Part shown: piece after piece, positions 21,597 through 30,444 of the stretch
Layout of the letters: each line of letters starts with the position of its first letter
Position numbering within the stretch: position 1 is the stretch's first letter
IMG/VR virus record: IMGVR_UViG_3300030107_002418
Location: 1-30,444 of that record
From: a virus
Length of the DNA: 30,444 bases
Reading direction: 5' to 3' (one strand)
Program-made: the position numbers and the translations under genes
Notes under the pieces: model-generated
Database searches by the model: none
Told to the model about the DNA's origin: nothing
The model's input: the letters and a program-made list of their open reading frames with translations, nothing else

Positions 21597-23045
21597 ATGC
21601 TAGAATACCAATATAAGACAAAACCTTATGATCACCAGAAAGATGCTCTTGAGAAATCATGGGAAGACACAGAACATGCTTTATTTATGGAGATGGGTTG
21701 TGGGAAGTCTAAGGTCTTATTAGATAATATTTCTATCCTTTATTTAAAAGGCTTAATAAATGCTGCGTTAATAGTTGCCCCTAAGGGAGTTTATGATAAT
21801 TGGGTTGACGGTGAAATACCTACTCATGTACCAGACTACATAGATAAACAAGTTTATAGGTGGTCTCCTTCCGAGACTCAGAAAAACCAAAAGGAAAGGG
21901 AAGAGATATTAAAGTTTTCTAAAGATTTAAATTTTGTTGTAATGAATATAGAGGCTTTTAGTACAAAGAAAGGTACAGATTTTGCTTCTAAGTTTTTACT
22001 TAATAAAAGGGTACTGTTTGCTATTGATGAAAGCACTACTATAAAGTCCCCAAGTGCTGCAAGAACAAAGAACACTTTACGTTTAGCAAAGTATGCAGTT
22101 CATAGAAGAATACTTACTGGGTCACCAGTTACTCGTAGTCCTTTAGACCTATATACTCAGTGTGAGTTTTTAGATCCAGCCTTACTGGGTTTCAGTAGTT
22201 ACTATAGTTTTAGAGCAAGGTATGCTGAAATGGTTGATAGAAGTGCAGGTGGTCGTACCTTTAAACAAGTTATAGGATACAAGAACTTAGATGAATTAAA
22301 CGAATTACTACAACCTTTTAGTTACCGTATATTAAAGAAAGATTGTTTAGACTTACCTGATAAAGTGTACACAACTCGTAAGATAGAGATGACACCTGAA
22401 CAAAAGAAAGCCTATGATGAAATAAAAAGATACGCTATGACTGAACTCAGTAATAGTGAACAAGTTTCAGTTACTTCGGTTATTACTCAACTTCTAAGGT
22501 TACATCAAATATCCTGTGGGTTTACTAGAACAGATACAAAACAAGATGTAGAGTTAAAGTCGGCTAGATTAGAGGAGTTAATGAGTATATTAGAAGAAAC
22601 AGAAGGAAAGGTAATAATATGGGCAAATTATCGTTACGACATACAGAGGATTTTAAGAGCCATACAAGACCAGTATGGTAAGGGCTCAGTAGGGGCTTAT
22701 TATGGGGACACCACAGACGATGAGAGACGTAATACAGTACAATTATTTCAAGATAAATCAAGTGAATTGAAGTACATCGTAGGTAACACACAAACAGGGG
22801 GATATGGAATCAATTTAACTGCTGCAAATACAGTGGTCTATTACTCTAATAACTTTGACCTTGAGAAGCGTTTACAGTCGGAAGACAGGGCACATAGAAT
22901 TGGTCAGAATAACAAGGTTACTTATATAGATATTATCTGTAAAAACACAGTAGACGAAAAGATTGTTAACTCATTAAAAGCTAAACAAGATATTGCTTCT
23001 AAAGTACTTGGTGAGGAAAAGTCTTGGAAAGACTGGATAGTCTAG
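21597..23045 (+). CDS. SNF2-family DEAD/DEAH helicase
   Basis: A two-domain superfamily 2 ATPase: Q-motif-like region with Q14, Walker A MGCGKSK (33-39), DExx box as IDEST, ILTGSP (motif III), and in the second domain GGYGINLTAANTVVYY and RAHRIGQ (motifs V and VI). SNF2-type phage helicases move along duplex DNA and may remodel replication forks or strip proteins. The length of 482 aa is normal for phage forms. It is the only rightward gene in the right-hand two thirds and overlaps the leftward ART-like gene's end by four bases. Confidence 0.93.
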   Translation: MLEYQYKTKPYDHQKDALEKSWEDTEHALFMEMGCGKSKVLLDNISILYLKGLINAALIVAPKGVYDNWVDGEIPTHVPDYIDKQVYRWSPSETQKNQKEREEILKFSKDLNFVVMNIEAFSTKKGTDFASKFLLNKRVLFAIDESTTIKSPSAARTKNTLRLAKYAVHRRILTGSPVTRSPLDLYTQCEFLDPALLGFSSYYSFRARYAEMVDRSAGGRTFKQVIGYKNLDELNELLQPFSYRILKKDCLDLPDKVYTTRKIEMTPEQKKAYDEIKRYAMTELSNSEQVSVTSVITQLLRLHQISCGFTRTDTKQDVELKSARLEELMSILEETEGKVIIWANYRYDIQRILRAIQDQYGKGSVGAYYGDTTDDERRNTVQLFQDKSSELKYIVGNTQTGGYGINLTAANTVVYYSNNFDLEKRLQSEDRAHRIGQNNKVTYIDIICKNTVDEKIVNSLKAKQDIASKVLGEEKSWKDWIV

Positions 23046-24172
23046 CCAAAATAAGATACGTTTTTGTACTGGGCTTTTAGTCTGGTTTCTTTATTAAACC
23101 CCTGCTTCTTTAAAGATTTAGAAGGTTTAACTTGAGTAACTTGTTTCTTTCTTAGATTAACTGGTTTAGGTAAAGCCGTGATTCCTTCACGAACTGGACC
23201 ACCCTCTTCTAGTTCCTTTAAGGGCTTAGGAGTATTGTACATTATTTGACCAGTGTCTTTATCCCTTACTCCTTTAATCATCTTTCCGTCAAGAACTTGT
23301 AGATTTAATGTGCCTTCCTCAACTGTGGTGTAACCTTTCCAACCTCTGTCTTTAACTCTTTCGGAAATTGTTTCTAAAACTTCCCAGTTTGATTTTTCCC
23401 AATCTTTTAAATCTTTTACATTATCCATTGTAACTTTATCAAATGCAGCTTCTTTTTCAGCTAGAACCCTATCATTCCTTAAAGTACCATCCTTTTTAAA
23501 TAAATTTTCTTTAATCTTTTTTCTTTCGTTCTTGTATTCGGTAGCTATGTATTCTCTGTGTTTAGGGTTTCTATAATCAAGAATCTTATTAGAAAACTTT
23601 TTATCCAACACCGTAGGTATAACTCTTGCATTAATGTCTTCCCCTTCTAACCTGTTAGCAAACTTATCAGCAAACTTATAGTCAGAAGTAACAGAGAAAG
23701 AAGGAGACCTACCTGCTGCCATTGGTCCAGCTGGGAGATGAAAATCTTTTAATTGTTTTGGAGCAGGAACTTGCACACCTAGTTCGTTCCCTCTAGAGCC
23801 CATCCTTTCAAACCTTATGGGGTCGTTTGTTCCATGGTAGCTGGGTTTGTCTACAAAAATTTCTTTGACATTCCCTTGACCTTTAACCTTAGGAGCACCT
23901 CTCAAAGCTGCGACTGGATTAAGAGATGCAGCTTTTGCACCTAAACTTTTAATACCACCTTGAGTACTTGCTGGTAATAAATTAAACCCAATCTTTCCTG
24001 CTCTACCGTAAGGAAAAAGCATTAATGCTGCTTCTACCCCAAGTGTTTTAGCCATCCTCTTACCTTCTTCAGTTTGAAGATAGTCTCGTTGAGCATTGAG
24101 TTCCTTTGTTCTCAAATCAGTGTATTGCTCAAGTAGGTTAGAAGGTGAGTTTATTCTTTCTCCTGTCAGCAT
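23042..24172 (-). CDS. Putative ADP-ribosyltransferase (ART-PolyVal-like)
   Basis: After a helical N-terminal region (1-105) there is YHGT (112-115), SFSVTSDYKFADKFA (158-172), and near residue 285 RGWKGYTTVEEGTLNLQVLD followed by MIKGVRD. This order matches the ART-PolyVal type of ADP-ribosyltransferase seen in phage polyproteins and injected effectors, with YHGT binding NAD and the last segment the usual end of the fold. A key catalytic Glu cannot be assigned with certainty. Placed downstream of the curli-like block in the late region, it may be carried in the virion to modify host proteins on entry (inference). Confidence 0.6.
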   Translation of the reverse strand: MLTGERINSPSNLLEQYTDLRTKELNAQRDYLQTEEGKRMAKTLGVEAALMLFPYGRAGKIGFNLLPASTQGGIKSLGAKAASLNPVAALRGAPKVKGQGNVKEIFVDKPSYHGTNDPIRFERMGSRGNELGVQVPAPKQLKDFHLPAGPMAAGRSPSFSVTSDYKFADKFANRLEGEDINARVIPTVLDKKFSNKILDYRNPKHREYIATEYKNERKKIKENLFKKDGTLRNDRVLAEKEAAFDKVTMDNVKDLKDWEKSNWEVLETISERVKDRGWKGYTTVEEGTLNLQVLDGKMIKGVRDKDTGQIMYNTPKPLKELEEGGPVREGITALPKPVNLRKKQVTQVKPSKSLKKQGFNKETRLKAQYKNVSYFG

Positions 24173-24181
24173 GATTTTATT

Positions 24182-25951
24182 TTAACTCCATGTGTAAACT
24201 TGTAAAGGCTTTTCTTTTCCTTTGACACTTAAAGGCTCTAGTTCTTTTAATTGATAATCACTTTTTATAGCTGTACTATATCCTATCAATACATCAACAC
24301 CTGCTTCCTTAGTTCCTGATTCTAATCGTGCACCTGTGTTAACTGCGTCCCCAATAGCAGTATAGTCAAACCTTGATTCACTACCCATGTTGCCTATAAC
24401 TGCGTAACCTGTATTGATACCCACACCAATAGCGACAGGGGGTAAGCCTTTATGAGCAAGTTCATAGTTTAAATCCTCCATGTTTTTCTGTATGTCTCTG
24501 GCACAGTCTATAGCTTTATTTTCATGAAAGTCTTGGTCTATCGGTGCATTAAATATAGCCATCATTGCATCACCTATATACTTATCCACCATACCACCAT
24601 GTTTTTGAACTGCTTTTTGTTGAGCAGTTAATGCTTTATTCATTATGTAAGTTACTTCCTCAGGCTCTAACCTTTCAGACATTGAAGTAAAGCCACGTAC
24701 ATCTGTGAATAAAAAAGTAGCGTATCTTTTTTCTCCACCCAGTTTTAAAAGATCAGGATTCTTTTGCAGTTGTTTAACTTGTCTAGGATCTAGGTAGTGT
24801 TCAAATTGTTTTTTAATTTGTTGTCTTAGTTTATATTGTTCTCTGAACCTTATATAAAATGCAGTAGAAGCAGTTATGAATTGGGAAATTAATGTCCAAG
24901 TAACGTCTATCAACACCCCTTGCTGTATTGTCCAATGACCGTAAAATCCAGTAGCAAACATAAAAAGGACAGCATAAATAATACCAAAAGTTATTCCGAA
25001 AAAGTTTATTAAAATCCAAATACAAACAATAGAAACAAGTAAAAGAGACAATTCTACAGCTATGGAGTAGTCTGGTATGAACGGACTATTTTCTATCAGG
25101 ATACTTTCTGCAAGTGCAGCTTGTATTTTGTGTGGCTCTAATAAACCAACAGGAGTAGACAATTGTGGCATAATACCTTTAGCAGTAAAACCAACAAACA
25201 CAAATTTATTTTCTACATCCATTTCTTTTAAATCTGTTTGTGGTGTGTCTACCCAACTAACCCATTTACGACCTAAAGAATCAACAGGAACAGGGGACAA
25301 ACCTTTTACTCTGATTTCCTCTAACCCATTCTCGTTTGTTTTTATAACGTAAGTATCCGCTCCTGCTAAAATCTTTAACACCTCTGTTCCGTATGCAGGA
25401 ACCCAACCATCAGGGGTACGAAGAAGTAGAGGTAATCTTCTAACAAGTGAATCAACATCAGTTCTTGCAACTGCTATACCCTGATTAGCATTATTTTTTA
25501 AAACCTGTATATTTTCTATAACACCTTTTGAATTAAGACCACCTTTATCATCACCTAGAATAACAGTACCAGTAGTTGGTGGGTACTTTCCGTTGTCGTT
25601 TTCAAACATAGCTAGGACACTTGGGGCAAAAGCTAAAGATTCAGTAAACTCAAAGTCACCCCCAAACCTGTCAGGTTGTGGGAAAGCTAATACCCAACCC
25701 ACACCTATTGCACCTTTGCGTAATAAGTTTATTTGTATTTGTGCAAGAGTCTGTCTAGATAGAGGATAACCACCTTCGTTAGCTATATCATCTTCTGTGA
25801 TGTTAAGTATAGTGAAATACCCTGAGGGCTTTTCCTCAGTAACTAATGAGTCAAATGTTTTTAATTTTAATATTTCTAAAGGAGTTAACTGAAAAACTAA
25901 CGGCAGTGTTAACACACTTAATAAACCTAGAAGAGTTAGCCATTTAGTCAT
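24182..25951 (-). CDS. CHASE2-domain membrane adenylate cyclase
   Basis: Class III cyclase making cAMP, with an extracytoplasmic CHASE2 sensor. Order: N-terminal membrane anchor (about 4-22), CHASE2 (about 30-295), three membrane spans (about 297-317, 320-337, 348-368), a linker and the catalytic domain (408-589). Metal-binding D417 (FTDVRGF) and D461 (YIGDAMM), adenine-selecting K457 and D529, and transition-state N538 and R542 (NTGARLE) are all present; K and D at the specificity sites favour ATP over GTP. So the enzyme looks active. It is last in the curli-like block, its ATG overlapping the curlin stop by eight bases. CHASE2 cyclases often neighbour FecR-domain genes in bacteria. Confidence 0.92.
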   Translation of the reverse strand: MTKWLTLLGLLSVLTLPLVFQLTPLEILKLKTFDSLVTEEKPSGYFTILNITEDDIANEGGYPLSRQTLAQIQINLLRKGAIGVGWVLAFPQPDRFGGDFEFTESLAFAPSVLAMFENDNGKYPPTTGTVILGDDKGGLNSKGVIENIQVLKNNANQGIAVARTDVDSLVRRLPLLLRTPDGWVPAYGTEVLKILAGADTYVIKTNENGLEEIRVKGLSPVPVDSLGRKWVSWVDTPQTDLKEMDVENKFVFVGFTAKGIMPQLSTPVGLLEPHKIQAALAESILIENSPFIPDYSIAVELSLLLVSIVCIWILINFFGITFGIIYAVLFMFATGFYGHWTIQQGVLIDVTWTLISQFITASTAFYIRFREQYKLRQQIKKQFEHYLDPRQVKQLQKNPDLLKLGGEKRYATFLFTDVRGFTSMSERLEPEEVTYIMNKALTAQQKAVQKHGGMVDKYIGDAMMAIFNAPIDQDFHENKAIDCARDIQKNMEDLNYELAHKGLPPVAIGVGINTGYAVIGNMGSESRFDYTAIGDAVNTGARLESGTKEAGVDVLIGYSTAIKSDYQLKELEPLSVKGKEKPLQVYTWS

Positions 25952-26726
25952 ACTGGGTTATAGTAACCGTTTTTGTGCAATTAGTTACACAATTGTATGT
26001 AGCTGTAAATGATTTGTCGTTAGCCCCACTTTGAGTAACTGCAACATTATAATCATCTTTATAGAAATTTAGTCTAGCAGTATGGTCTCCTGAACCTGAT
26101 TGAGTTATAGACGCTGTTCCATCATCTGCGTCTGAATACCAAAACACATCTGCATCATGGTCTCCTGAACCTGATTGTGTAATAGTTGTAGTGTTTCCGT
26201 CAGCGTAGTTATAGTTATATATGTAAGCGTTATGGTGCCCTGTTCCTGACTGAGTTATAGTGCTTGTAGCGTCATCTCCAAACGCCAATATCTTTGCGTA
26301 CTTATTGTTTCCAGTTTGAGTTATTGAATAAGTTGTGTCATCTCCTGCCATTAATATCTCGCCATGATTATCGTCTCCATTCTGAGTTATAGTGGCTGTA
26401 TTATCATCTTGGTCTAAATCTAAATATCCGTAATTGTCATCACCTGTCTGGGTTATCGTAAACTCATTATCTGAATGGTTTGACCATTGAGAATAGGCTT
26501 TAGTTGTGTTCCCTGAGCCTGTGGTTGTTAGATTGATAGTTGCCCTAGTACAAGTATGGGTTTGGTAAACTCCGTTGCTTAAACCACAATAGACAGTGGC
26601 ATTGTTTGTATATCCTACCTGCTTAATATTGATAACAGAATCATTCCCTTTCTGCTGTATAACAGTTGAATTGTTTCCTGCAAATAAAGGAAAACTAATC
26701 AGACTGATTAATAATAATCGTACCAT
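25944..26726 (-). CDS. Secreted curlin-repeat protein A (CsgA/CsgB-like)
   Basis: Curlin-type amyloid subunit. It has a signal peptide (MVRLLLISLISFPLFA, 1-16) and repeats opening with ITQxG at 91, 113, 135, 157, 182, 207 and 230 (22, 22, 22, 25, 25 and 23 apart), each with Asn/Asp after the QxG as in CsgA. An imperfect pair of repeats lies at the N terminus (IQQKG, IKQVG). Each repeat should form one strand-turn-strand coil of a cross-beta fibre. Four cysteines (C47, C59, C246, C250) are unusual for curlins. ATG 26726 follows GGAGGTGGTG; upstream GTGs are less likely. It should leave through the CsgG-like pore encoded upstream. Confidence 0.88.
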   Translation of the reverse strand: MVRLLLISLISFPLFAGNNSTVIQQKGNDSVINIKQVGYTNNATVYCGLSNGVYQTHTCTRATINLTTTGSGNTTKAYSQWSNHSDNEFTITQTGDDNYGYLDLDQDDNTATITQNGDDNHGEILMAGDDTTYSITQTGNNKYAKILAFGDDATSTITQSGTGHHNAYIYNYNYADGNTTTITQSGSGDHDADVFWYSDADDGTASITQSGSGDHTARLNFYKDDYNVAVTQSGANDKSFTATYNCVTNCTKTVTITQYD

Positions 26727-27759
26727 CACCACCTCCGTTAACTGTTATATCTATAAACTTACCAGCAGATAATATTTGTATATTATAAGCACTTCTTTTT
26801 TCTATTTGTAAATCTATTGTGTTTTCTACGCTTCTAAAGAATGTAAGCATCTCTCCTTCAACATAAGAATAGGTTTGTGCTTTAGCGTCAAAGCCAGCTT
26901 TTATTCCCTCTATGGTTACATCACCTATTTTAGACACTTCTTCCTCACCTTCTATAAACGCTAATAGGTCTATAAGAAAATCTACACTTAATAAGTCTAT
27001 AGATAACCTGTCTATTTCAAGTTCATCTTCTTCTAATTCATCTTCATCAAAGTTTTCTTCTAAAAAGTCCACGTCTAATACATTAGTGCTTTTAGTATTT
27101 TGTTCATCAACGGCTTCTTGTACTTCGTTAGGTGGATTAACTATAAGAAGGTTATTAATAAACCCCAGTGTCATATTTACTAAGGTCACTGGTTTGGTAG
27201 GAGGGGCTTCAGAAACACTAACCATAGTTGCCTGAAAGGGTTGGTTTAGAACTTCTATTCCTGCTGCTGTTTCAACAGTTATCTCACCTGAACTTGTTCC
27301 GTCTTCGTTTGGTAACAATATCACAAGAGACCGCCCTATTTCATCTACGGTCGTGGTGAAATCAGTTCCTCTAATAGCTATGTTGGCAGAGGGAGTTTTG
27401 ATAGATATATTTTCTTTGTTTATTCTTCCTAAAGCCCCTGTGATAAATCTAGCAGTACCACTAGCCATGTTCAAAGCTAACTTAGATTTACTAGGATCAG
27501 GGTCATAGATGTATTCATCAACTATAATTTTAGAATGTTCTGTTAGTTTTAATACAGAATCATCCAAAAAGGTAAGAGCCATACGACCATTACCTGTCCT
27601 TACATCATCGTTACTGAAAATACCTAAAGCAAGTTCTGCCAACAGTTTATCTCCATTCTGGTTACGGAGTATTTCTCCGTTACCTCTTAGTTCAGATATA
27701 GAACCTATTTCCGCATATAGCGGACTAGACAATAAGGCTATTAACAGCCAGTAGTGCAT
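26695..27759 (-). CDS. Secreted FecR-domain protein
   Basis: Signal peptide at 1-16 (MHYWLLIALLSSPLYA). A FecR domain is visible at about 40-160: RTGNGRMALTFLDDSVLKL and IAIRGTDFTTTVD are signature segments. A strongly acidic region follows at about 225-260 (LEENFDEDELEEDELE), then a beta-rich C terminus ending GGGDGTIIINQ. FecR domains in such proteins are periplasmic or surface sensors and scaffolds rather than the sigma-regulator of iron uptake. Between the two curlins and before the cyclase, it may sense or anchor the fibre. Overlaps the curlin genes on both sides. Confidence 0.85.
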   Translation of the reverse strand: MHYWLLIALLSSPLYAEIGSISELRGNGEILRNQNGDKLLAELALGIFSNDDVRTGNGRMALTFLDDSVLKLTEHSKIIVDEYIYDPDPSKSKLALNMASGTARFITGALGRINKENISIKTPSANIAIRGTDFTTTVDEIGRSLVILLPNEDGTSSGEITVETAAGIEVLNQPFQATMVSVSEAPPTKPVTLVNMTLGFINNLLIVNPPNEVQEAVDEQNTKSTNVLDVDFLEENFDEDELEEDELEIDRLSIDLLSVDFLIDLLAFIEGEEEVSKIGDVTIEGIKAGFDAKAQTYSYVEGEMLTFFRSVENTIDLQIEKRSAYNIQILSAGKFIDITVNGGGDGTIIINQSD

Positions 27760-28427
27760 TGGTCTATATTAATAGTACCGCTTGTTGAAGCAGCAACTAA
27801 ATTTATAGTATCCGTTACACCTGATGCACTTGTTGTTTGGTCAATGTCCACATCATTACTATCACCAGTAAGACTGACTGTTATTGATTTATCATCAGTT
27901 CCAATCTGAGTTACATCAATATCATTACTGTTGCCATCTATTGTCCAATTATTGACTGCACCTATAACTTCACTTCTGATGTTTAAATCATTAGTGTTAC
28001 CAGTTATAACCGCATCAAAGTTTCCGCCTGTGGCTGCACTTGAACTACCTTGTAACCAAGTCAATACGTTAGTATTACCTGTCGCACTGTAGTCAAAGTC
28101 AGAAGAAGTTACTGCTCCTGAACCACCTGCCGTAATTGTTGACGTATTAGAATCACCAATTTGGTACATAGTCCAACTAGAACTTGCTGCCTGAGCAATA
28201 GTATTAGCCAAAGTATTAGTATTACCTTGTTGCTTTATATCAGCAGTTATAGTTGCACCTGCAAAAGTAGACCTAGTGTTTGAAGTACCAACTTTATTAG
28301 TATTACCTATCTGGTCAATCGTTAATGTGAAAGCACCACCACCAGATTGTGTTAAATAAATATCATTATTCCCTGCGTACATAAAACTTGTAGAAAGTAA
28401 CAACAATACTTTAATTAGATTTTTCAT
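27741..28427 (-). CDS. Secreted curlin-repeat protein B (CsgB-like)
   Basis: Signal peptide (MKNLIKVLLLLSTSFMYA, 1-18), then imperfect curlin-type repeats: QIGNTN, QQGNTN, YQIGDSN, TGNTN, DGNSND, QIGTDD and TGDSND, with Ser/Thr/Ala-rich spacers. They are less regular than in the neighbouring curlin, as in a minor or nucleating subunit, but that role is inference. The C terminus is CTTGC (C224, C228). ATGA overlap with the CsgG-like gene links translation. Probably exported by that pore. Confidence 0.82.
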   Translation of the reverse strand: MKNLIKVLLLLSTSFMYAGNNDIYLTQSGGGAFTLTIDQIGNTNKVGTSNTRSTFAGATITADIKQQGNTNTLANTIAQAASSSWTMYQIGDSNTSTITAGGSGAVTSSDFDYSATGNTNVLTWLQGSSSAATGGNFDAVITGNTNDLNIRSEVIGAVNNWTIDGNSNDIDVTQIGTDDKSITVSLTGDSNDVDIDQTTSASGVTDTINLVAASTSGTINIDQCTTGC

Positions 28428-29257
28428 TTTTCCTCCTCACTCAATAGTGAATAATCAAAATCCCATAATTGTTTTTCAAGACCTTCTTTTACTAACGAAT
28501 ATACTGCCGTCTCGATAGCAGATCTCGTTGCATAGCCTGTAGCTTCTGTTTGTGTGTATCCTGTTTCTATTTCCACTAACTCCGTACCCAGTTCCGTGAA
28601 CCTGAAAACATCTCTACTTACACCTGCACTCAGTATAGTTTTACTAACTGTCGTGTTTAACATAACTTCACCTGTTTGAACTAAGACTGCTCTAACAGAT
28701 ACAGTTATATCGTCTTTACGGTATTGGTTTGTATTTCCAATACCTAAATACCTAGCACCATTTCCCCCAGTCATAATGTCTGAATCATAGGAAACAATAC
28801 CACCTTCTAAGATTATACCTGCAAATAGAATAGGTTTTAAAGTATTACCTTTTTCACCATCATAAGTTTGTCTGGTACTCTTAATTAATTGTCGTTCTTT
28901 AGTTAGATTATTTAAACCCACCCTTTCCACCACAACGAACCATTCTCCATTGCCTGCATTTCTTAAAGCCTCGATTAAATAATTTTCCGCACCTTGCGTA
29001 ACTGCTGTAGAAAACAGAGCCATTTTATTGGAAGGCTTACGTTGACCTGTTAGATCTTTAAATTCATAAACTGCAACTACAGCTTTTTGATTGGGTTTAG
29101 GTAAGTCTAAAAGTTTTTGTAAAGTTACTCTTTCTACTCTTGCATCTTCAGGGCAAGTAAGACCTACAATAAGACAGTTCTCGGCTCTAGGAGGGGCGAA
29201 GGATGCGCAACCTGTAAGAACCCCTATTAAAACTAAACACCACAGTCTGCGGTACAT
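28424..29257 (-). CDS. csgG: CsgG-like outer-membrane curli secretion lipoprotein
   Basis: CsgG forms the nonameric outer-membrane pore for curli subunits. Evidence: signal peptide with lipobox LTGC (14-17, lipidated C17), the family's VAVYEFKDLTGQ segment near 62-73, ALRNAGNGEWFVVVERVGL and LIKSTRQ typical of CsgG, and the later ILEGGIVSYDSD with an ITVSVRAVLVQTGEVM strand region. At 277 aa it is the size of E. coli CsgG. Lies directly after csgF and before the curlin gene. No CsgE-like partner is visible in the window. The transmembrane hairpin residues cannot be checked by eye. Confidence 0.93.
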   Translation of the reverse strand: MYRRLWCLVLIGVLTGCASFAPPRAENCLIVGLTCPEDARVERVTLQKLLDLPKPNQKAVVAVYEFKDLTGQRKPSNKMALFSTAVTQGAENYLIEALRNAGNGEWFVVVERVGLNNLTKERQLIKSTRQTYDGEKGNTLKPILFAGIILEGGIVSYDSDIMTGGNGARYLGIGNTNQYRKDDITVSVRAVLVQTGEVMLNTTVSKTILSAGVSRDVFRFTELGTELVEIETGYTQTEATGYATRSAIETAVYSLVKEGLEKQLWDFDYSLLSEEEK

Positions 29258-29763
29258 ATCCCAAATATTCCTATCGGTATTACAATCTCGGTTATAGAAC
29301 CATCCTCTGCGATAACCGTTAATGTTATGTATTCTCCGTCATTGGAGAATGATATTTGATTGCCTTCTAATTCTATTGTTCCACCAGTACCACCGTCTTC
29401 ATCAAATAACATGTCTGAAATATCTCTAGAGAGATTACTGAAGATACGGCTTTGTAAGTTATTTAAAAACTTATTAAGCGTGCTGTTCTCTATTTCTCTT
29501 TCTATCTCTTCCAATTCTGATTGGATCTTCTCTGCTAATTCATCTCTACGCTTAGTCTCTTGTTCATCTATAGTTAGATAATGTGCTGAAGCCCCTACAC
29601 CACTAAAGCTGGGGTTTTTAAATTCGTGAACTAAAGGGGAAGCTGCAGCTTTCCCTGTGTATAAAGAAACACTCACCATAATAATTACGGTAATCAGAAT
29701 AGAGGATATAAATAGTATTTCCCCAATATAATCATTTTTCTTATTAGTCTTTCCTTTGGTCAT
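29233..29763 (-). CDS. csgF: CsgF-like curli assembly factor with long signal anchor
   Basis: CsgF binds in the CsgG pore and directs fibre nucleation. After a 15-residue basic start and a membrane segment (16-35), a signal-peptidase-like AAAS precedes the mature N terminus with FKNPSFSG (48-55), matching the CsgG-binding FRNPNFGG stretch of E. coli CsgF. A helical middle contains LNKFLNNLQSRIFSNL, like CsgF's QAIQSQIL region, then a beta C terminus. It ends ICTADCGV (C170, C174), not seen in E. coli CsgF. The ATG overlaps the holin-like gene by 20 bases. Confidence 0.85.
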   Translation of the reverse strand: MTKGKTNKKNDYIGEILFISSILITVIIMVSVSLYTGKAAASPLVHEFKNPSFSGVGASAHYLTIDEQETKRRDELAEKIQSELEEIEREIENSTLNKFLNNLQSRIFSNLSRDISDMLFDEDGGTGGTIELEGNQISFSNDGEYITLTVIAEDGSITEIVIPIGIFGICTADCGV

Positions 29764-30094
29764 CTCTATCTGCTTTAGCTATTTTATTACTGTCGATCAA
29801 TTGAGGAACACCTAGTATAGTTTTTATTAAAGTGTCTTGCCTTATTATTTCGTTATCTAAAGACCTTACCCTATCAATTAAAGCTACTAGAATACCGTGT
29901 TGGGAATCCAGTTTAGTTCCTAATCTATCCTCCATGTTTGCAATTAACTCAGCTTGCTTATCGTCTAGGGTATCAAGTTTAGTTTCCATGCCATCAATAA
30001 TTCTATTGATCAGTTTCCAAATAAAGAAACCTAAACCACCTGCTGCTGCAATTGGAAAACCAACCTCGTTAATCAGTTGGACAGCTTGTTCCAT
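29744..30094 (-). CDS. Holin-like small membrane protein
   Basis: One N-terminal membrane helix (about 8-29: INEVGFPIAAAGGLGFFIW), followed by a long charged coiled coil (about 36-95) and a basic end. This topology occurs in BhlA/UviB-type small holins and in other phage membrane proteins; the assignment is by shape only. The ATG overlaps the stop of the structural gene by one base and the end overlaps csgF. If a holin, it would time lysis and its linkage to the CsgG/CsgF genes is notable. No endolysin is visible in the window. Confidence 0.5.
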   Translation of the reverse strand: MEQAVQLINEVGFPIAAAGGLGFFIWKLINRIIDGMETKLDTLDDKQAELIANMEDRLGTKLDSQHGILVALIDRVRSLDNEIIRQDTLIKTILGVPQLIDSNKIAKADRDDQRKD

Positions 30095-30444
30095 TACAAT
30101 TCTGTCATTGACTTTCTTGCTCCTGGGTTAGGAGTTTGTAAGCCATTTATCCCTTGTAATAAATTGTCTACATAAGCTTGGTCATAGTATCCTGAGTAGT
30201 CTACCGCAGGAATATCTGAGGTTAAGGTGTAGTCTTCCAACAGTTTGTCAAGATCAGATTGAGTATAGTAACCTGTGTAGTCTACTGGGTTGTCTAACAG
30301 ATATTGGTCGATTAAGCCTTGAATGTCCTTATTAGCTGTGTAATCAGAATAGTCTGCAGTAGGAATTTCACTTGTTAAAGTGTAGTCTTCTAAAAGTTTA
30401 TCTACATCTGTATTTAAAACATAGTTTGAATAGTCTGCTGGAAG
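30094..30444 (-). CDS. Partial repetitive structural protein (tail fibre-like)
   Basis: The last 116 residues are visible; the 5' end lies outside the window. The segment DKLLEDYTLTSEIPTADYS recurs as DKLLEDYTLTSDIPAVDYS, with related DYTGYYTQSDLDK blocks between, a tandem repeat with a period near 50 residues made of Leu-Glu-Asp-Tyr and Tyr-Ser/Thr-Gly-Tyr. Such repeats are usual in phage tail or fibre proteins, where they build long shafts. The C terminus is basic (NPGARKSMTEL). It overlaps the holin-like ATG by one base (TAATG). The domain cannot be named from this fragment. Confidence 0.6.
   Translation of the reverse strand, partial: LPADYSNYVLNTDVDKLLEDYTLTSEIPTADYSDYTANKDIQGLIDQYLLDNPVDYTGYYTQSDLDKLLEDYTLTSDIPAVDYSGYYDQAYVDNLLQGINGLQTPNPGARKSMTEL

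Follow-up and report, generated by a model that had tools for sequence, protein, structure and literature searches.

A seven-gene block for curli-type (type VIII) secretion is carried by the marine podophage analysed here, and on balance it probably forms a working secretion module of late infection. A phage module of this kind is already published; the linkage of the block to lysis genes and the reassignment of its small upstream gene, TMcc, are, as far as seen, unreported in the open-licence papers on these phages. Curli blocks are reported from phages whose hosts have no curli of their own, and what they are for has been a question since 2020. Adjacency to lysis genes gives a testable hint as to when and why the block is used, and together with the identity of TMcc and the retention of the curlins it turns three loose hypotheses into one direct test, in which removal of the curlins is compared with removal of the pore for its effect on lysis timing.

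The curli block in its phage genome

The window, the whole stretch of DNA analysed, spans bases 1 to 30,444 of an IMG/VR virus record that is 63,629 bases long (63.6 kb; IMGVR_UViG_3300030107_002418). The major capsid protein of the record is 70% identical to that of Pelagibacter phage HTVC023P and 72% identical to that of 023Pt_psg01, with identities for this protein of 70-73% within the lineage, and the record is therefore assigned to the HTVC023P-type pelagipodoviruses. Seven minus-strand ORFs overlap or abut in the order TMcc, CsgF, CsgG, curlin 1, FecR, curlin 2 and CHASE2 cyclase, and are followed by two further genes:

29744-30094, minus strand: TMcc, predicted 116-aa bitopic membrane protein with a coiled coil; phrog_18771; seventh conserved block gene
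29233-29763, minus strand: CsgF (Pfam CsgF, 5.8e-16), with signal peptide and CsgG-docking motif
28424-29257, minus strand: CsgG, outer-membrane lipoprotein pore (Pfam, 3.6e-53), with lipobox
27741-28427, minus strand: curlin 1, secreted curlin-repeat protein (Pfam curlin repeat, 2.8e-8)
26695-27759, minus strand: FecR-domain secreted protein (Pfam, 1.4e-11)
25944-26732, minus strand: curlin 2 (Pfam curlin repeat, 7.4e-15, 7 stretches)
24182-25951, minus strand: CHASE2 and class III nucleotide cyclase, predicted adenylate cyclase (Pfam CHASE2, 3.4e-23; guanylate_cyc, 6.9e-19)
23042-24172, minus strand: 376-aa ORF downstream of the block, not counted as a member; no family match
21597-23045, plus strand: SNF2-type phage helicase flanking the block (Pfam SNF2-rel, 5.4e-24)

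ORF calls and Pfam bear out the six leftward genes, CsgF to the cyclase, that the original prediction had named: all are intact, with correct positions and names, and all of their Pfam matches exceed curated cut-offs. The extent of the block had been drawn too short, in that TMcc, directly upstream of CsgF, is a seventh member. Rfam, tRNA and promoter scans gave nothing useful, the promoter matches equalling the shuffled expectation.

The position of the block within the late virion gene cluster of this genome would suit decoration of the virion by curlins, one of the uses suggested originally. That use found no support and is highly improbable: the signal peptides direct the products to the periplasm, and elsewhere the block adjoins helicase, lysis or replication genes.

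Distribution and published relatives

A search with CsgG recovered the gene order of the window in about 45 viral contigs, the conserved synteny that had been proposed as a check. In all, about 123 distinct CsgG blocks were counted, nearly all on viral contigs. Completeness was counted on the 48 blocks in which CsgG is followed by 6.5 kb or more of sequence; none of the 48 is without a curlin or FecR, and 42 have the cyclase (absent from 6). Curlin 1 is universal in the block, and curlin 2 is missing from some blocks.

These data leave a negligible chance that the block is an assembly chimera or bacterial contamination, an explanation prompted by some matches on MAG contigs and by a scaffold gap of 10 N situated 350 bp upstream of the block. 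The gap (record positions 30445-30454) is the sole N-run of the record and falls outside the block, the junction of cyclase, 376-aa ORF and helicase recurs in three other contigs (L294, L295 and L296), and the block is also carried by cultured phages. Neither a chimeric join nor confinement to bacterial contigs, the two outcomes that would have undone the prediction of a phage-borne block, was thus found.

CsgF and CsgG were described in pelagimyophages by Zaragoza-Solas 2020 (PMC7029224). Buchholz et al. 2022 found CsgGF in the Methylophilales phage Melnitz, proposed a role in lysis and stated that curlins were absent; neither fibres nor clumping was seen in Melnitz infections (PMC9004378). 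The Melnitz record annotates two curlins, FecR and the cyclase in the order of the window, and the curlins had been missed in that study. Wittmers et al. 2022 reported the full module, including a 'histidine kinase', FecR and adenylate cyclase, in HTVC023P-type podoviruses, and found curli blocks to be widespread in ocean phages, at about 0.1% of assembled viral proteins (PMC9599517). That module is of the same lineage as the one described here and shares its order, including the small upstream gene, FecR, the second curlin and the adenylate cyclase; it differs in that the upstream gene is called a histidine kinase there, whereas here it is found to be without a kinase domain and to occur also in lysis cassettes. 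None of the terms holin, lysozyme and endolysin appears in the main text of PMC9599517.

The likeness extends to T4-like phages. Melnitz has the order CsgF-CsgG-curlin-FecR-curlin-cyclase with TMcc upstream, as in the window, and in Pelagibacter phage HTVC008M CsgF-CsgG-curlin is followed by two proteins annotated as hypothetical, which match FecR and curlin 2, and then by the cyclase, again with TMcc upstream. Both differ from the window phage in being T4-like, in the sequences of CsgG (48-51% identical to that of the window) and of the cyclase (32-34%), and in that lysis genes were not found beside the block. With csgBAC/csgDEFG of E. coli the window block shares CsgG, CsgF and curlin-repeat subunits, whereas CsgE, CsgC and CsgD were not found in the block and FecR, the CHASE2 cyclase and TMcc are added.

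Four contigs deposited in bacterial MAGs (L061, L069, L070 and L085) carry TMcc and are probably mis-binned phage contigs, as checked for L085. A 1.5-kb CsgG record labelled 'Salmonella phage' (OR851715, L051) forms a long branch among Bacteroidota, and was set aside as possible bacterial contamination.

The secretion core

CsgG begins with the lipobox LTGC17, of which C17 is invariant in the CsgG alignment, and matches E. coli CsgG (3x2r) at 5.8e-47 over residues 3-268, with 266 residues aligned. In CsgF the motif F(K)NPSFSG has F48, P51 and F53 invariant across 20 sequences. A CsgF profile matches E. coli CsgF (6l7a, 2.4e-4), aligned on FRNPNFGG, such that F-x-N-P-x-F-x-G coincides with the E. 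coli CsgG-docking peptide. Retention of this motif counts against the phage CsgF having lost, or become decoupled from, its partner. With curlin-repeat subunits likewise matched by family profiles, the curli-type architecture originally proposed is upheld, and the parts that define type VIII secretion, a CsgG lipoprotein pore, a CsgF docking peptide and curlin-repeat subunits, are all recognisable in the predicted proteins.

Where calculable, dN/dS against close relatives is 0.04-0.08 for CsgG, 0.06-0.17 for curlin 1 and 0.02-0.15 for curlin 2, and these ratios indicate that both curlins are under purifying selection. Curlin 2 also matches NCBIfam CsgA (6e-16, below the cut-off). In the structure prediction that had been proposed for the curlin repeats, the AlphaFold2 model of curlin 1 is confident and beta-rich, with short strands along its full length (mean pLDDT 88.8, pTM 0.83); it has no significant match in the PDB.

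As originally noted, CsgE, CsgC and CsgD are absent from the block: none is annotated among its genes, and Pfam gives no CsgE there. CsgE is not essential for the curli phenotype (PMC7029224). A pore for which no CsgE gate is annotated, in a phage whose host is marine and oligotrophic, could instead import nutrients or cofactors for the infected cell (PMC7029224, PMC9599517). Such a use is very unlikely, leaving unexplained both the obligatory curlins and FecR and the placement of the block among late or lysis genes.

FecR and the CHASE2 cyclase

The FecR-domain protein opens with a signal-peptide-like stretch. In its model a FecR beta domain (residues 17-180) is joined through an acidic linker (203-273, of low confidence) to a second, C-terminal beta domain (275-352). 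Foldseek relates the model to anti-sigma and cell-surface-signalling domains (4m0h, 1.6e-4; 6ovk, 6.4e-4) and, at lower significance, to a domain that serves cell surface anchoring (5ix9, E 2.1e-3). No cytoplasmic anti-sigma domain stands at the N-terminus, the periplasmic-type beta domain starting at residue 17, and Pfam identified no FecI-type sigma factor among the genes adjoining the block. Where calculable, dN/dS against close relatives is 0.04-0.10. A reading of the C-terminus (IxINQ) as a curlin-like strand lost ground with the model, in which IxINQ is part of an 80-residue beta domain. Some genomes have their FecR matches within giant ORFs, thousands of residues long; with the match to 5ix9, this suggests a possible tie to adhesin retention modules.

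In the cyclase alignment D417, D461, K457 and R542 are invariant and N538 is nearly so. We take D417 and D461 to be the metal-binding aspartates, K457 the adenine-recognising lysine, and N538 and R542 the transition-state Asn-Arg pair. The residues of a class III adenylate cyclase are thus all present in the window protein, which is predicted to be an adenylate cyclase.

The original prediction regarded FecR and the cyclase as the new part of the block, and this does not hold: both are published for the lineage (PMC9599517), both are annotated in Melnitz, and both occur in a bacterial chromosomal curli operon. The operon is found in two Caulobacteraceae MAG contigs (L056 and L057, 82 and 32 kb), where CsgF, CsgG, two curlins, FecR and the CHASE2 cyclase are flanked by ordinary chromosomal (metabolic) genes. 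Unlike in the window, no TMcc was found and both curlins lie upstream of FecR. With midpoint rooting, the CsgG of these contigs nests in the viral clade (support 98/94), and it groups with that of phages L038-L045 at 100/99, a placement compatible with transfer in either direction. A full-length FecR of the block type was not otherwise found in the 199 family and 399 phylum genomes sampled. The operon contradicts the published statement that bacterial curli operons are without FecR and cyclase, and the combination of FecR and CHASE2 cyclase is therefore not a phage invention.

The pair also exists apart from curli, since FecR has a CHASE2-type cyclase nearby, without curli genes, in 10 of 17 sampled bacterial FecR loci. 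As in the window, a FecR-domain protein lies near a CHASE2-type cyclase in these bacterial pairs; they differ in having no curli gene, a FecR that is mostly shorter, and the two genes on opposite strands.

TMcc and the lysis genes

Of 109 distinct blocks, 103 have TMcc ahead of CsgF, and among the six exceptions are L038, L040 and L042, in which a pair of TMcc genes occurs nearby on the other strand. Wittmers et al. 2022 described a 'short' 'histidine kinase' as always upstream and 'sometimes two' (PMC9599517). This gene is apparently TMcc, the two being equated by position and not by comparison with the published sequences. TMcc is duplicated in some phages, and a second TMcc scan together with 21 virus records gave a single copy in each podophage-type record and a pair in each of four other records. 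The 206 homologues are 69-135 aa long, with a single hydrophobic segment in 201 and none exceeding 150 aa, and neither Pfam nor PHROGs detected a kinase domain (HisKA, HATPase) in 18 members. All 18 match phrog_18771, with weak matches to holin PHROGs (best 1.1e-4). Judged by its sequence, TMcc is a one-helix membrane protein and not a kinase.

A search with TMcc alone yielded 77 new loci, 71 of them with adjoining CsgF/CsgG, which rules out TMcc as an unrelated neighbour of the block. In six curli-less loci (L145, L155, L160, L161, L170 and L187) TMcc directly precedes a holin-like gene and a PF00959 lysozyme. TMcc thus has the location expected of a lysis-cassette protein, being beside lysozyme, small and provided with a transmembrane segment. 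The holin-like protein has no Pfam match and is placed in a PHROG of unknown function, and it is similar to a protein of phage DSL-LC04 that is annotated as 'holin of 3TMs' (hhalign E 2.3e-5); the Pfam 3TM holin profile had no match in 21 records, and the control likewise matched nowhere.

In many curli phages the block sits between TMcc and the holin-like/lysozyme pair. Across 27 blocks the start of the holin-like gene falls anywhere from 123 nt before the end of the last block gene to 214 nt past it, the commonest arrangement being an overlap of a few nucleotides. In raw counts of distinct blocks, which ignore relatedness, 59 of the 72 with informative flanks have a holin-like or lysozyme gene no more than 2.5 kb away (44 downstream, 15 upstream), and 13 have neither. 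The TMcc search could be biased towards lysis loci; in a search with CsgG only, which guards against this, proximity was seen in 17 of 25. One close relative (L006) has the block followed by SNase, and in L017 a lysozyme gene lies directly upstream of TMcc. The window phage is one of the 13 exceptions, with lysozyme, SNase and a holin-like gene at record positions 41481-42935, 11.4 kb upstream of the block and in the same direction.

Tentatively, the podophage block may be an egress module that entered the lysis cassette, with TMcc on one side and the holin-like/lysozyme genes on the other, is coupled to them in translation and acts at lysis, such that amyloid export, or envelope sensing by FecR and the cyclase, times or shapes virion release. 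The same gene order lends unexpected support to the lysis pore among the original suggestions, wherein CsgG, alone or together with CsgF, would make the outer membrane permeable or set off lysis (Buchholz et al. 2022): most podophage contigs have the block within the holin-like/lysozyme cassette or next to it, and TMcc is common to both. Conversion of the pore into a lysis device is nonetheless rather unlikely. Separate genes for lysozyme, SNase and a holin-like protein are present in the phage, and the curli-less relatives, including two long contigs, have a lysis cassette without a curli pore. Moreover, the curlins and FecR are never lost (48/48) and appear to be under purifying selection, and conservation of the docking motif runs against the proposed decoupling of CsgF.

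A model for the function of the block

Among the uses suggested originally, secretion of amyloid fibres fits best, because the curlins are never lost and, by their dN/dS, appear to be under purifying selection. As a working secretion module, the block would be expressed late, alongside the virion and lysis genes, and the host Sec system would carry the curlins, CsgF and FecR to the periplasm. CsgG would form the outer-membrane pore, capped by the N-terminal peptide of CsgF; the curlins would exit through the pore and assemble at the surface of the infected cell. The CHASE2 adenylate cyclase would make cAMP and, together with FecR, would constitute an inherited pair for sensing the envelope. 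TMcc would be a membrane protein of the lysis cassette that accompanies the module and probably links it to the final stage of infection. We infer secretion, fibre formation, sensing, timing and benefit; the observations themselves are homology and gene order, the retention of curlins and FecR, purifying selection, conserved motifs, and the closeness of the block to lysis genes.

Counting against this model are the lack of fibres and clumping with Melnitz (PMC9004378), the absence of CsgE from the block, a curlin model without significant match in the PDB, the distance of the lysis genes from the block in the window phage, and the T4-like blocks, near which none were found.

Flanking sequences

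We take the YHGT motif of the 376-aa ORF (23042-24172) to recall ADP-ribosyltransferases. In L003 and L006 the block lies beside the same helicase as in the window, in the opposite relative orientation, as if it had been inverted or inserted twice. On the other side, a tail-type gene (window 30094-30444, record 30094-31209) contains DYTGYYTQSDLDKLLEDYTLTSDIP-type repeats and is broken by the 10-N scaffold gap.
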